Source: Patescibacteria group bacterium
GTDB taxonomy: Bacteria; Patescibacteriota; Patescibacteriia; UBA1558; S5-K13
Direction: 5' to 3'
Length of the DNA: 57,935 nt
NCBI GenBank assembly: GCA_028692545.1
Contig: JAQUXC010000007.1
Location: 1 to 57,935 of the forward strand
In this document: piece by piece, positions 7,885 through 41,834 of the stretch
Numbering within the stretch: the first letter of the stretch is position 1
Layout: every line of letters begins with the position of its first letter
Notes under the pieces: generated by a model
What the model saw: only the letters and a program-made list of their open reading frames with translations
What the model was told of the DNA's origin: nothing
Database searches by the model: none
Position numbers and translations under genes: made by a program

Positions 7885-7924
7885 AAAGGTAGAAAAAATA
7901 ATTCATATATCTAGGGAGGATATA

Positions 7925-8908
7925 ATGAGAAATGATTTGAAGATTATAACCGGTACTGGTCATCCAGATTTAGCTATAAGAATCTGTGAACAACTGTCTA
8001 AAATAACAGACAGAAATATAGAGCTTGTACCAACTATCTTAAAAAGATGGCCCAATGGCGAATTATATGCCAGAGTCAAAGAAAATGTCCGTGGATGTGA
8101 TGTTTTTATAGTTCAATCCATGCACTGCCAATTACCGTACAGCACAATCGAGGAAATCGAATTTCTGATTGATTGTATAAGAGACTCTGCACGCAGAATT
8201 ACGATTATCGCCTCCTGGATAGGATATGCAAAACAGGATCGCAAAACAATTTCAAGAGAGACAAGAGCATTCCGTGTGGTCTGTAAAAGATTATCAAGAT
8301 CTGGAGCAGACAGAGTTCTACTGTGTGATGTTCACAACTCTGCGACAGCTGGACTATTTGATATACCAGTGGATTCTGTATACATCATGCGCATACTCAT
8401 AGAAGAGATGCAATCTGAAATTGAAAATTCACCAAATCAAAAACCTATCCTATGTAGTCCAGATCTGGGCTCTGCAAAAAGAGTCCAAGCAATTTCTGCA
8501 ATAACAGGAATCAGTGATGTATGCGTAGTACAAAAAATACAAAAACACGATTCCAAAGAAATTGATATCGAAAAAAGCAAAATTCTCGGTAATGTACGTA
8601 ATAAGGATGTACATATATTTGATGACATGATTCAAAGCTTCAAGACCATGAAAATCGCTCTTGATATAATAAGAAAACATAATCCGAAAAGTATAACGCT
8701 TCATGTCGTACATCCAGACTTCATAGATGGTACCATAAATAACCTTGTTGGTTGTTGTGCGGATAAGATAATTATCACAGACACAATACCTGTTCCAAAT
8801 AATCTATCTTCAAAGGTTCAAGTCTTGGATCCATCTCTCTTTTTGGCGAAATGTATATTCAAAATTCACGAAGACGAATCTCTGAGTGAAATGTTCATTC
8901 AATATTAA
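7925..8908 (+). CDS. Ribose-phosphate pyrophosphokinase-like protein (PRPP synthetase)
   Basis: A 327-residue protein of the PRPP synthetase family, which makes 5-phosphoribosyl pyrophosphate from ribose 5-phosphate and ATP. Recognisable parts: ATP-loop YAKQDRK (101-107; usual YARQDRK), the metal/catalytic DVH (135-137; usual DLH), SPDLG in place of SPDxGG, and the ribose-phosphate loop DDMIQSFKT (233-241), where the family has DDMIDTGGT. The last change removes the Asp and Gly-Gly that contact the phosphate, so activity or substrate may differ. Strong ribosome-binding site, own promoter and terminator, opposite strand and visibly higher G+C than neighbours mark it as a separate unit. Confidence 0.85.
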   Translation: MRNDLKIITGTGHPDLAIRICEQLSKITDRNIELVPTILKRWPNGELYARVKENVRGCDVFIVQSMHCQLPYSTIEEIEFLIDCIRDSARRITIIASWIGYAKQDRKTISRETRAFRVVCKRLSRSGADRVLLCDVHNSATAGLFDIPVDSVYIMRILIEEMQSEIENSPNQKPILCSPDLGSAKRVQAISAITGISDVCVVQKIQKHDSKEIDIEKSKILGNVRNKDVHIFDDMIQSFKTMKIALDIIRKHNPKSITLHVVHPDFIDGTINNLVGCCADKIIITDTIPVPNNLSSKVQVLDPSLFLAKCIFKIHEDESLSEMFIQY

Positions 8909-8925
8909 ACCTACAACTTCAACTG

Positions 8926-8967
8926 ACGCTGACTTGTACCCCAAATACATAGTCAGCGTTTTTTTAT
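8926..8967 (+). terminator. Rho-independent terminator after the PRPP-synthetase-like gene
   Basis: ACGCTGACT (8926-8934) pairs with AGTCAGCGT (8951-8959), followed by a T tract. The -35 box of the next small gene begins immediately after it at 8968. Confidence 0.85.
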
Positions 8968-8993
8968 TTGACAAAAAATTTTATAGTTATAAT
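8968..8993 (+). promoter_or_regulatory. Promoter for the 44-aa membrane peptide
   Basis: TTGACA (8968-8973) and TATAAT (8988-8993) are both perfect consensus boxes but only 14 bases apart, which is shorter than the usual 16-18. The start codon follows at 9019 after AAGGAGGT (9007-9014). Confidence 0.5.
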
Positions 8994-9018
8994 ATTTATT
9001 ATCAACAAGGAGGTTAAT

Positions 9019-9153
9019 ATGAATACAATAAACTGGATTGCTAATATAACATTTATTATAAGTATTATAGTTGGAGTTTGGGGAATAATACTTAGGATAA
9101 ATGATTACTACAAAAGCAAAAAATGGGAAAAACAACAAAAAAAGACGGACTAA
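9019..9153 (+). CDS. 44-residue single-pass membrane peptide
   Basis: The start is fixed by a perfect AAGGAGGT ribosome-binding site at 9007-9014, four bases before the ATG at 9019; a longer open frame from 8968 would start inside the promoter and is rejected. The product is MNTINW, then one hydrophobic helix (about residues 5-26, IANITFIISIIVGVWGIIL), then a basic tail rich in Lys and Gln. It is predicted to sit in the membrane with the charged C-terminus inside. I do not recognise a family. It has its own promoter and a hairpin terminator overlapping its stop region, so it is an independent unit. Confidence 0.72.
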   Translation: MNTINWIANITFIISIIVGVWGIILRINDYYKSKKWEKQQKKTD

Positions 9154-9179
9154 ATAACAATTTTTATAGCCCGTCTTTT
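9140..9179. terminator. Bidirectional terminator between the 44-aa peptide gene and murB
   Basis: AAAAGACGG (9140-9148) pairs with CCGTCTTTT (9171-9179). Read on the minus strand the stem is followed by a seven-T tract, so it should end the mur operon; on the plus strand it ends the small peptide gene. Confidence 0.8.
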
Positions 9180-26976: not shown

Positions 26977-28125
26977 TTATTGGTTTATGGCTTGTTGGAA
27001 TGCTTTCCAAAAAGACACTATACCCTCAAGCTCATTAATACCACCGACCCTTGACGTAAGTTGCGGATTTCTGGAAGAATCAGCCTTAACGGCTTCGACA
27101 AGAGCTTCAAGTCCATTAACGTATTTAAATATTTCCTGGAACTCTTTCTTAGCTGCAAGGTCTATCTTCATAGCATCAGCCAATCCATGGGCTTGTATAA
27201 GCTTGATAGCTTTTTCCATTTCTGCTTTTGCTTCCGCTACTTTTCTTTCCGTATCAATCACTTCATTTTCTTTAGCGAGGACTTCCTGCTTGTTAGCCAA
27301 GATACCAAGCTGAGTTTTTTTCTCTTCATCCGAAAGAGCAAGCTTGTTTTCCTGCTCCTGTATTGCAGCTTCATTTTTACGAAAGGCAATTATGTCATCG
27401 CCATCAAAATCGGTGATGTGAAGCCTCACAAGTCTAACACCATACTCTGCAAACTCATTTTTGGGAAGTTTCTCTGAACGCATTTTTTCCAAAGACTCTT
27501 CGCTAATTTTTTTCTTATTAGGATCCATATCTTCCAAGTCATAATTATTACTTACTACATTTTCTATATATGTCTCTAATATTCGTGAGAGTAAATTTCC
27601 GGCCTTTACTAAACTCTTATCCCAATTCATCCCAAGTTCCCAGATCTTGTCGTAGAACAACATTATTTCCGTTATCTGGAATTCGAAAGAACCAACTACT
27701 TTTACAAGCATTCCATCTTTCGATGTCACTGCTATATCAATTTCTTGATTGTTCTCAATCCTTTTTAAAGGAATTACTTGTATTGATAGGGGTATTGTAG
27801 TCCTTGATCTGTATATAAATCTTGGCCAGTTAAAAATTACTCTGCCAAGCCTTTCAGGTTTGTTAGATCCAGTAAAAAATCCATTTACAAAACCTTGGAT
27901 TACGATAGCCACGTTTGTTCCTATGTAAATAGAGTTTTTTACATAAAATAAAACAATCCCTAATACACCACAAAACATCAAGACTATATATCCTATCCAT
28001 ATATATTGCATCCCTCCAATTAGATTAAAAAAAATCGGTAGGGTGTACTTCAATACGACTAGCTCTATAAAAGCTAGGAATAAGGCAATTATCAAATAAA
28101 TCGCCTTTAGAGTGCTGAATTTCAT
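26977..28125 (-). CDS. SPFH/band-7 domain membrane protein
   Basis: 382 residues. Two membrane helices (about 8-30 and 40-62) precede an SPFH domain (about 75-260; FNWPRFIYRSRTTIPLSIQV, VTSKDGMLVKVVGSFEF, and GVRLVRLHITDFDGDD), followed by an Ala/Glu/Lys-rich coiled coil (AEAKAEMEKAIKLIQAHG) typical of flotillin-like scaffolds. SPFH proteins organise membrane microdomains or hold proteases. The start follows AAGGAGGAAC, a strong ribosome-binding site. It has its own promoter and terminator and visibly higher G+C than its neighbours. Confidence 0.88.
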   Translation of the reverse strand: MKFSTLKAIYLIIALFLAFIELVVLKYTLPIFFNLIGGMQYIWIGYIVLMFCGVLGIVLFYVKNSIYIGTNVAIVIQGFVNGFFTGSNKPERLGRVIFNWPRFIYRSRTTIPLSIQVIPLKRIENNQEIDIAVTSKDGMLVKVVGSFEFQITEIMLFYDKIWELGMNWDKSLVKAGNLLSRILETYIENVVSNNYDLEDMDPNKKKISEESLEKMRSEKLPKNEFAEYGVRLVRLHITDFDGDDIIAFRKNEAAIQEQENKLALSDEEKKTQLGILANKQEVLAKENEVIDTERKVAEAKAEMEKAIKLIQAHGLADAMKIDLAAKKEFQEIFKYVNGLEALVEAVKADSSRNPQLTSRVGGINELEGIVSFWKAFQQAINQ

Positions 28126-28176
28126 TGGTTCCTCCTTATTGAAACCTTTTTAGTTTGTTTTTTTATTTACTATTTA

Positions 28177-32330: not shown

Positions 32331-32363
32331 AGCACCCGGCGGGTTGACCACCCGGCGGGTGCT
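32331..32363. repeat. Paired ACCCG-G-CGGGT palindromes
   Basis: CACCCGGCGGGT occurs twice with TGAC between, and the whole forms a near-perfect hairpin (AGCACCC...GGGTGCT). The same 11-base core is paired again at 57769-57799. It lies between murJ and the terminator of the 279-residue gene. Confidence 0.75.
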
Positions 32364-32368
32364 AAAAC

Positions 32369-32405
32369 AAAAAAACATGCCTACTCCTTTACGAAGTAGG
32401 CATGC
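32369..32405 (-). terminator. Terminator after the 279-residue exported protein gene
   Basis: Minus-strand stem CATGCCTACT/AGTAGGCATG (32376-32385 and 32395-32404), with a T tract (plus-strand A tract 32366-32375). Confidence 0.9.
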
Positions 32406-32427: not shown

Positions 32428-33267
32428 CTATCTCATAGCAAGAAGCTTCTCTGCCGAAGCAAGAGCCTCCTTGCCACCCTCAATCTGAATAACTTGTTGC
32501 TTCAATAACAACAACCGTTCGGGAGACTTTTGGTGTAAGGTCTGAACAGCAGATTCTGCCATCGGTGGATACCACCAAAGGCTTTTTAACTTATCATGAT
32601 GTTCTAAAATAAAAGAACATTCATAAACAAACCGTCCGCCAGTAGAAATTCCTACCGCATACTTTAGAATCTCCTCATACTCTTCCACAGAAACATTATC
32701 TCCCAATATTCCCGTTAGTACTATTGCTGGACATTCGGAACTAACTAATAAAAAAGTATTGTCTGTTAATTCCTTATCCAAAAGCCCACTCTCTTTGGCG
32801 AATATGATTCTCCAAAAAAGCATAGCCCTAAGACTTTGGAGATCCAAAGCCTTTTCCTTTTCCTCTATGGAACGCTGTGGAATTTCAACATTAATAGGTT
32901 CTCTTGGTAATGGTACCAGATCTTGAGAACCAAGCTCAACATAACGTCTCAACATCAACCGAGCACCTGCCTTTGTTGAATCACTTGGACTATTTTGCCA
33001 TGCAATAATGTCCTTTCTGAAAAGGCTATCCAGGGTCCCTACGGTGACAATCCGATTTCTCGGATTATACCAGTCTGGGTCAACTTTTTGTTTAGGAACA
33101 GGATTTTGTGATTCCTTTTGATCAGTTATTAACTTTGGTTTTTCAGTTTCTTTTGTCTCTGATTTTTCTCCAAAAAAATCTGGAGCAAACATCAATACAC
33201 ACATTACCAAACACAACAGTAACAAGATTAATTTCCCATTCTCCTGATTCAATTTTCTGTTATTCAT
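32428..33267 (-). CDS. Orphan exported/membrane-anchored protein, 279 aa
   Basis: I do not recognise the family. The N-terminus has a hydrophobic segment (about 12-28, LILLLLCLVMCVLMFAPDFF) acting as signal anchor, then a Glu/Lys/Pro-rich linker (30-65), then a globular part with mixed composition (WYNPRNRIVTVG..., LMLRRYVELGSQDLVPLPREP, GISTGGRFVYECSFILE). There is no lipobox with certainty. It has a strong TAGGAGGT ribosome-binding site, its own promoter and a strong terminator. Codon use with CGT, CTC and GGA and higher G+C differs from neighbours. The leader bases before the start match those of the 106-residue gene at 40697. Confidence 0.8.
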   Translation of the reverse strand: MNNRKLNQENGKLILLLLCLVMCVLMFAPDFFGEKSETKETEKPKLITDQKESQNPVPKQKVDPDWYNPRNRIVTVGTLDSLFRKDIIAWQNSPSDSTKAGARLMLRRYVELGSQDLVPLPREPINVEIPQRSIEEKEKALDLQSLRAMLFWRIIFAKESGLLDKELTDNTFLLVSSECPAIVLTGILGDNVSVEEYEEILKYAVGISTGGRFVYECSFILEHHDKLKSLWWYPPMAESAVQTLHQKSPERLLLLKQQVIQIEGGKEALASAEKLLAMR

Positions 33268-33300
33268 GATTTACCTCCTACGGTATATTTTGAATTTTTT

Positions 33301-40613: not shown

Positions 40614-40642
40614 TTGACAAATATAACAATATATGCTAGACT
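40614..40642 (+). promoter_or_regulatory. Promoter for the 106-residue exported protein
   Basis: TTGACA (40614-40619), a 17-base spacer and TAGACT (40637-40642), with TG at the extended -10 position. Leader with TAGGAGGT four bases before the ATG. Confidence 0.65.
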
Positions 40643-40696
40643 TTTATAAACCCAAACAAAGTTTGGGAAATAACAAAAGTTACCGTAGGAGGTAAA

Positions 40697-41017
40697 ATGA
40701 AAAAGAGTATAATAATACTCATCGCAGTCCTAGTCTTGACAACAACGATGTTTGCCAAAACAAACACCACCAACCGGAAAGACGTTGAAGTCTATAAAAA
40801 GATGACTTCAGTAGAGAAAGAAACCGTTAATATATGCATATCTTTAACCCAAAAAGAAGAAGACATAAAAGAATGCAAAGAGTTGGCTCCACTACTCATC
40901 GGGATAATGAGTAACAAAGGTTGGCAAGATGCAAAAGACAAGGATAAGGCAACAAAAAATTTGATTATTTTCATAGATGAAAACAATCAAATACAAATGC
41001 AAGAAGAAAAAGCGTAA
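40697..41017 (+). CDS. Small exported protein, 106 aa, unknown function
   Basis: MKKSIIILIAVLVLTTTMFA is a textbook signal peptide with cleavage after MFA. The mature part is about 86 residues, Lys/Glu-rich, with two Cys (in NICISL and IKECKEL) that could form a disulfide. No known domain. Strong ribosome-binding site; the 16 bases before the ATG match those before the 279-residue exported protein. The end carries two hairpins. I do not recognise a family. Confidence 0.8.
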   Translation: MKKSIIILIAVLVLTTTMFAKTNTTNRKDVEVYKKMTSVEKETVNICISLTQKEEDIKECKELAPLLIGIMSNKGWQDAKDKDKATKNLIIFIDENNQIQMQEEKA

Positions 41018-41018
41018 T

Positions 41019-41086
41019 ACTAGAAGGCTCTAGTGATAATCCACTAGCCACCACTGTCAATGTGACTAGTGGATTTTATTTTTTTA
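41019..41086 (+). terminator. Double hairpin terminator after the 106-residue gene
   Basis: ACTAGA-AGGC-TCTAGT (41019-41034) is a perfect hairpin. Then AATCCACTAG (41038-41047) pairs with CTAGTGGATT (41066-41075), followed by a T-rich tract to about 41086. Confidence 0.8.
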
Positions 41087-41183: not shown

Positions 41184-41212
41184 TTGACAAATATACAATA
41201 ATATGATATATT
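41184..41212 (+). promoter_or_regulatory. Promoter for the 174-residue membrane protein
   Basis: TTGACA (41184-41189), a 17-base spacer and TATATT (41207-41212); AAGGAGGT lies before the ATG at 41267. Confidence 0.7.
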
Positions 41213-41266
41213 TACAAATCAGCTTTATACAAAAATTTTAAAAGCTGCTTACCTAAGGAGGTAAAA

Positions 41267-41791
41267 ATGAAAAATAATATTTTGCTCATGGTTGGCGGGT
41301 TCGTGCTCACCGTAGTTGTCATGCTGGGATTTGGTCTCATCCATATCCCACACACCACTCTTGTGAATGGGTATTTCTATTCCAAAGTCCCTGGTGTAAA
41401 AATCTACTGTCTGAACCAAATTATCAGACAGGCAGATACTGTCTGGGAATTAGATCGAATTTCAAACTATACTCGGTGGATAGACCCAAGTAATGGGAAC
41501 AGAATCTACCCACGTCAACAGAGAGTCATTGCCCTCAAAATGTTGAAACTCGCGATAAAAGATCCAAACCCAGAATGGTTTGAGTCTTCCTCTATACCAT
41601 TCGAAGAAAGAAACGGAATGGTAATAGCTTTACATTGGTCATGGGAAATTCTCTTTGATCAAAACCCAAAAAACCATGCCAAAGTTCTGAAAATGGTGGA
41701 AAAGTATTACCAAAAATACGAATACACCAAAAATGAGGAGGAAAAATATTTGTATGCAGAGATTGCTTCGGCAAAGCCAGGCGAACTCTAA
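41267..41791 (+). CDS. Orphan membrane-anchored protein, 174 aa
   Basis: The N-terminal membrane helix (about 5-27, LMVGGFVLTVVVMLGFGLI) is followed by a soluble outside domain with many aromatic residues (NGYFYSKVPGVKIYCLNQII, WELDRISNYTRWIDPS, MVIALHWSWEILFDQNP). No motif I can name. Strong ribosome-binding site, own promoter and a GC-rich terminator. Visibly higher G+C than the glycosyltransferase genes around it. It shares its architecture, though not its sequence, with the 106- and 279-residue orphans. Confidence 0.78.
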   Translation: MKNNILLMVGGFVLTVVVMLGFGLIHIPHTTLVNGYFYSKVPGVKIYCLNQIIRQADTVWELDRISNYTRWIDPSNGNRIYPRQQRVIALKMLKLAIKDPNPEWFESSSIPFEERNGMVIALHWSWEILFDQNPKNHAKVLKMVEKYYQKYEYTKNEEEKYLYAEIASAKPGEL

Positions 41792-41807: not shown

Positions 41808-41834
41808 AAGGCGCTCCCCACAAAGGAGCGCCTT
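41808..41834. terminator. Bidirectional terminator between the 174-aa gene and the sugar transferase
   Basis: AAGGCGCTCC (41808-41817) pairs with GGAGCGCCTT (41825-41834). On the minus strand it is followed by a TTTTATTGTTTTTTT-like tract and should end the sugar transferase gene. Confidence 0.85.

Follow-up and report, generated by a model that had tools for sequence, protein, structure and literature searches.

Strong Shine-Dalgarno sequences within small predicted hairpins at gene starts of a Patescibacteria genome

An identical 16-base leader precedes unrelated genes in the Patescibacteria genome studied here. We consider it probable, from the sequence evidence set out below, that this leader is an optimal Shine-Dalgarno (SD) sequence placed in a small hairpin, and that it belongs to a lineage-specific set of such hairpins with gene-specific arms that would act on translation. 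The original prediction had read the match as a sign either of shared origin or of post-transcriptional control in common. Our analysis speaks against a shared origin or cassette and favours a common post-transcriptional feature, in the form of a putative SD-hairpin structure that extends to a larger gene set.

Copies of the leader and the genes behind them

The window is the whole 57,935-nucleotide stretch analysed, which is contig C7 of genome G000 (1.07 Mb, 28% GC, 99.4% complete). The sequence TACCGTAGGAGGTAAA indeed stands before two genes, as had been claimed, and the related leader described for the 174-residue gene, TACCTAAGGAGGTAAA, is equally real:

32428-33267, minus strand: 279-aa orphan ORF with an N-terminal transmembrane helix; GC 0.39 versus 0.28 for the window
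33270-33285, minus strand: TACCGTAGGAGGTAAA, 2 bases 5' of the ATG of the 279-aa ORF
40681-40696, plus strand: TACCGTAGGAGGTAAA, abutting the ATG of the 106-aa ORF
40697-41017, plus strand: 106-aa orphan ORF with a signal-peptide-like N-terminus; GC 0.34
41250-41265, plus strand: TACCTAAGGAGGTAAA, 1 base 5' of the 174-aa ORF
41267-41791, plus strand: 174-aa ORF with a signal-anchor-like N-terminus; GC 0.40

These are the only three sites in the window with at most 3 mismatches to the leader; shuffled windows had a mean of 0.24 such sites, and none of 100 shuffles reached three. A search of the full genome, as the original prediction had proposed, yielded one further exact copy of TACCGTAGGAGGTAAA at C1:42163-42178 (minus strand), 5' of a 92-aa zinc-ribbon ORF in a two-gene zinc-ribbon operon. 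A variant, TACCTGAGGAGGTAAT, lies at C20:10325-10340 (minus strand), 5' of a gene for a 233-aa methyltransferase. The pattern TACCNNAGGAGGT occurs five times in the 1.07 Mb genome, each time at a gene start, as compared with one occurrence of the reversed control pattern.

The proteins behind the five leaders are mutually unrelated. Their description as exported fits the three genes of the window, which encode hydrophobic N-termini, but not clearly the zinc-ribbon or methyltransferase genes. We found no match to the 279-aa protein in Pfam, NCBIfam or PHROG and no homologue among 284 other genomes of the class; its predicted structure has a pLDDT of 41 and is confident only for helix 2-27. The sole PHROG match of the 106-aa protein is weak (PHROG 29755, E 7.6e-4, unknown function).

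The genes are flanked by the following candidate elements:

32375-32405, minus strand: terminator-like stem 3' of the 279-aa gene
40614-40642, plus strand: promoter-like TTGACA-17-TAGACT with TG before the second hexamer, 106-aa gene (consensus match only)
40651-40667, plus strand: 5'-UTR stem-loop CCCAAAC-AAA-GTTTGGG of the 106-aa gene, just past the expected transcription start (sequence, folded)
41038-41076, plus strand: terminator-like stem AATCCACTAG...CTAGTGGATT with a T-rich tail, 3' of the 106-aa gene (sequence)
41184-41212, plus strand: promoter-like TTGACA-17-TATATT with TG before the second hexamer, 174-aa gene (consensus match only)
41808-41834, listed on the minus strand, the stem being symmetrical: terminator-like stem GGCGCTCC...GGAGCGCC, 3' of the 174-aa gene

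Contrary to the claim that the promoter sequences differ, the 106-aa and 174-aa genes have TTGACAAATATA and the TG before the second hexamer in common (local alignment p 0.013). Stem-loops at the 5' terminus, found before the 106-aa, 174-aa and zinc-ribbon genes, were rejected as a common feature, there being no enrichment with strong SDs (p 0.29). A GC-rich inverted repeat, CACCCGGCGGGTTGACCACCCGGCGGGTG, lies at 32333-32361, with a MurJ gene on one side and the 279-aa gene on the other.

Pairing across the Shine-Dalgarno sequence

Ten of the 16 leader bases constitute an optimal SD and spacer, AGGAGGTAAA. The leaders are canonical SD leaders, with AGGAGG 3-6 nt before the ATG, and the anti-SD at the 16S end is intact in the genome (GGATCACCTCCTTT). 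In all five leaders, TACC can pair with GGTA, which comprises the last GG of the SD and the spacer, leaving the SD core AGGA in a loop of 4-6 bases before the AUG; in two of the five, the extra T of TACCT lengthens the stem. The predicted hairpins of the window (pair probabilities in context, 37 C) are:

279-aa leader, minus strand: 5' arm TACC 33285-33282, loop GTAGGA 33281-33276, 3' arm GGTA 33275-33272, SD AGGAGG 33279-33274; -4.0 kcal/mol, pairs p ~0.96-1.0
106-aa leader, plus strand: 5' arm TACC 40681-40684 (+T40680), loop 40685-40690, 3' arm GGTA 40691-40694 (+A40695); -4.9 kcal/mol, pairs p 0.91-0.98
174-aa leader, plus strand: 5' arm TTACCT 41249-41254, loop AAGG 41255-41258, 3' arm AGGTAA 41259-41264; -5.2 kcal/mol, p 0.32 with a competing alternative fold

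All these stems are predicted to be weak (-4 to -5 kcal/mol), and when more of the context is folded, TACC:GGTA reaches only p 0.3-0.4 in three of the five leaders. In most leaders the last GG of the SD is predicted to be largely paired and AGGA often open; no consistent melting was predicted over 10-45 C. The TACC leaders alone can offer no covariation evidence, since their paired bases are invariant. Because SD, spacer and 5' arm fix all but two loop bases (GT in three leaders, TA and TG in the others), the exact 16-base identity adds only a modest element of coincidence to what is otherwise a structural rule.

To place the five leaders among other strong starts, we counted 69 starts with GGAGG at SD distance in ~892 kb of the genome, taking starts from a simple ORF procedure rather than from annotation. 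TACC stood at the exact leader offset in 5 of 11 AGGAGGT starts (0.026 expected), as opposed to none of the 58 other GGAGG starts. TACC thus goes with GGT, indicating pairing. Arms around the SD were first suggested by reading 47 strong leaders, and the same architecture recurs with different arms:

7906-7924, plus strand: TATATCT-aggga-GGATATA-ATG, 5' of a PRPP-synthetase-like ORF (7925-8908, plus strand)
28127-28146, minus strand: GGTTTC-aataagga-GGAACC, 5' of a Band-7 ORF (26977-28125, minus strand)

Further examples are GATAAT-ggagg-ATTATC-ATG, GATATTT-ggag-GAATATC-ATG, TCTAC(T)-gga-GGTAGA and AATCC-aagga-GGATT. A clear stem is seen at no more than about one in three GGAGG starts. The Band-7 gene forms a near-identical leader pair, GGTTTCAAWAAGGAGGAACC (28126-28146), with the gene for an unrelated 428-aa protein on contig C22 (L024:348-1634, minus strand). 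At three genes (L026:12897, L031:6881 and L043:1125), a larger hairpin of REP-like type, TGTCATTC...GAAGAATGACA or a variant of it, ends right at the SD. About 30 leader bases are common to L043:11842 and L165:9307, whose proteins are partly similar (43% over 77 aa), and this identity may be explained by descent rather than structure.

We measured the fit between arms and SDs by a swap test, in which the 14 nt 5' of each gene's GGAGG were joined to the GGAGG...ATG of other genes and the folding energies compared. For 48 GGAGG starts in 507 kb, the energy was -2.20 kcal/mol with a gene's own arm versus -1.39 kcal/mol with swapped arms (z -5.3; 0 of 20000 permutations). The effect persisted when the TACC leaders were removed (z -4.6, p 1e-4); own against shuffled 5' arms gave z -5.8, and reversed arms folded at -1.10. 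It was replicated in a held-out 385 kb with the procedure fixed in advance (16 starts, z -4.4, p 0.00035), and all 69 starts together gave z -6.7. An energy-free stem score found a strong stem at 29 starts versus 14.2 +- 2.5 after swapping, and SD-centred stems were in excess.

The pairing effect had its maximum at GGAGG, with z about -7, and fell off sharply to either side of the SD. It was absent for starts with AGGAG, GGAG, AGGA, GAGG or no SD, and at 403 GGAGG sites of the same genome that are not starts (z 0.04). Likewise, we observed no excess at 106 starts of phages SPO1, K and G, which infect Bacillus or Staphylococcus and have strong SDs in AT-rich or moderate-GC genomes (z -0.95); a direct two-sample test of the per-site excess against these phages was borderline (p 0.051), since a hairpin is present at only about a third of sites. 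Three genomes of the same family showed the effect when pooled (37 starts, p 0.007), more weakly than G000; singly, G002 gave p 0.012 and G001 p 0.16. Two other members of the order, G013 and G026, showed no hairpin excess on few starts (n 12 for G026).

Alternative explanations

Strong SDs are unevenly distributed in this genome. A GGAGG start was found for 29 of 62 genes with GC >34%, as against 18 of the 424 remaining genes. Genome-wide, the genes fall into two populations: an SD-less core of ~27% GC, and a minority of 34-47% GC that has GGAGG starts and consists mostly of orphan or accessory genes. Genomes of the same family tend the same way. The GGAGG genes comprise orphans, genes for proteins that look exported or secreted, and genes for a few enzymes (PRPP synthetase, GARS, an OMP decarboxylase family member, PfkB and an M29 peptidase). 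Large proteins with a common C-terminal domain are encoded at L022:7863, L038:247, L175:10191 and L173:13390, most with strong SDs; where scanned, this domain is of the FlgD-Ig / Por secretion tail type, a sorting-type tail unexpected for so small a genome.

One alternative is passive compensation, in which strong SDs are kept where leaders happen to be structured, most genes of this AT-rich genome starting SD-less on open leaders. We judge this the least unlikely of the alternatives, perhaps one chance among several. No tested SD motif was found at 366 of 486 called starts, and SDs are known to permit initiation in moderately structured leaders (PMC3155529). Passive compensation leaves unexplained, however, why pairing should have its centre at the SD itself and not in some other part of the leader.

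A shared origin, in which an expression cassette made of the leader, and perhaps of a promoter and terminator as well, spread from gene to gene by copying, is disfavoured and seems to us improbable. It would account for the three exact 16-base copies, for genes that stand as units of one between promoter-like and terminator-like sites of their own, for a GC of the leader genes above that of the genome, and for the similar promoters of the adjoining 106-aa and 174-aa genes. When we compared the 110 bases 5' of the five leaders, however, only that pair (p 0.013) and the 174-aa/methyltransferase pair (p 0.03) were significantly similar. The upstream likeness is only of the AT-rich promoter type, and the homologous flanks of a mobile cassette were not found; nor are the proteins related. 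Once a strong SD and a hairpin are given, only the loop bases GT remain for common descent to explain.

Relatives speak the same way. Conservation of the leader in related strains was not borne out, TACCGTAGGAGGTAAA being absent as a start leader in 35 other genomes of the order; the one match, in G016, was rejected because its reading frame stays open upstream through the site. A search of 257 Gb of genomes for the 16-mer followed directly by ATG gave 8 exact matches, none labelled as from a relative. In G002, of the same family, the locus carries a 47%-identical orthologue of the 174-aa gene, whose leader has GGAGG but neither TACC nor a hairpin, and an orthologous pair of genes for 866-aa and 863-aa proteins has no conserved hairpin, indicating that the feature turns over fast. 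In G003, the second zinc-ribbon gene again stands behind the PBP gene, and its leader differs. Between the PBP and zinc-ribbon genes, near the SD, terminator-like hairpins with T-runs are present in both G000 (L020, 5' of 8885-9163, minus strand) and G003 (L091:2700-2722), and may represent a terminator or attenuator. A phage origin was rejected: the 174-aa protein has no viral relative, and the small proteins have only weak PHROG matches. The 16-mer is present in 24 viral contigs of the whole collection, counted without context. We also rejected mimicry of 16S rRNA by ACCGTAGG, which resembles the helix 45 strand of E. coli 16S rRNA; the genome's own helix 45 reads ATCCGTAGCGG.

About as improbable is that a CsrA-like RNA-binding repressor binds the hairpins by recognising a loop GGA over the SD. 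The geometry fits CsrA targets, in which a short stem presents GGA in its loop, often one of six bases (PMC7652899), and here many leaders' loops end in GGA. CsrA (PF02599) is present in 5 of 35 genomes of the order. By contrast, we found none in this 99.4%-complete genome or in its family relatives G001-G003, the GTAGGA loops lack the ANGGA form, and G026, a relative that does carry CsrA, has no excess of hairpins (n 12).

Chance under SD constraint alone, by which ten bases are consensus and the remainder coincidence, has very little left to recommend it, and its strong form is refuted. AGGAGGTAAA is the best SD with an A-rich spacer, and 16-mers do recur upstream of genes, mostly in paralogous sequence; the concentration of TACC at AGGAGGT starts and the position of all five genome matches at starts argue against it. 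Equally remote is a palindrome acting in DNA, such as a transcription regulator's operator, that happens to overlap the SD. TACCT-AAGG-AGGTA is an inverted repeat, but the arms vary by gene, the loops lack symmetry, and it is with the SD and ATG, not with the promoter, that the sites keep a fixed register.

A possible layer of translation control and its known counterparts

We return to gene-specific hairpins built around the SD. That they act on translation, in which direction, and through any signal or binding protein, we infer from sequence. Hairpin and SD are probably tuned together. The stem would hold initiation down or make it conditional, while the exposed SD core would give the 16S anti-SD a place to nucleate, from which it could invade the stem and melt it. 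Since AGGA lies in the loop and the 3' arm takes in the last GG, a ribosome could first attach to the loop and then open the stem, which would tune or gate initiation. The genome encodes an S1-type protein with four S1 domains; Hfq (PF17209) was not found in G000, and Rfam covariance models reported only RNase P and one tRNA at gathering scores in the window, with none at the leader locus. A stronger version, in which a lineage of small-genome bacteria with no detectable CsrA or Hfq would have a translational regulon of dozens of genes with gene-specific SD-in-loop hairpins, read by some factor or condition, is conceivable, though we would not bet on it.

Overall, the data suggest that SD hairpins may form an unrecognised layer of translation control. 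Post-transcriptional control in uncultivated bacteria with small genomes is almost unexplored, and our searches of the literature on SDs in Patescibacteria turned up nothing on hairpins. The sequence-level rule marks a subset of accessory and exported genes and names specific leaders for experiments. It illustrates, too, that short identical leaders can come from common RNA structure rather than common descent.

RNA thermometers of the fourU and ROSE types mask the SD in a small hairpin beside the AUG. The hairpins predicted here are likewise small, SD-containing and beside the AUG, but their SD core lies mostly in the loop instead of being paired along its length, and no UUUU faces it. The operator of the phage MS2 coat protein also places an SD within a small hairpin near the start codon; that operator is a single site bound by the coat protein, whereas the sites described here are numerous, their arms differ, and no protein is known to bind them. 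Leader hairpins bound by CsrA/RsmA share the short stem, the SD's GGA in the loop and the overlap with the translation start, and differ in that here CsrA was not found in genome or family and the loops vary, often without ANGGA (PMC7652899). Strong SDs of E. coli are slightly more structured (PMC4619774); that tendency is slight, whereas here the 5' arm fits the spacer of its own gene over those of others.
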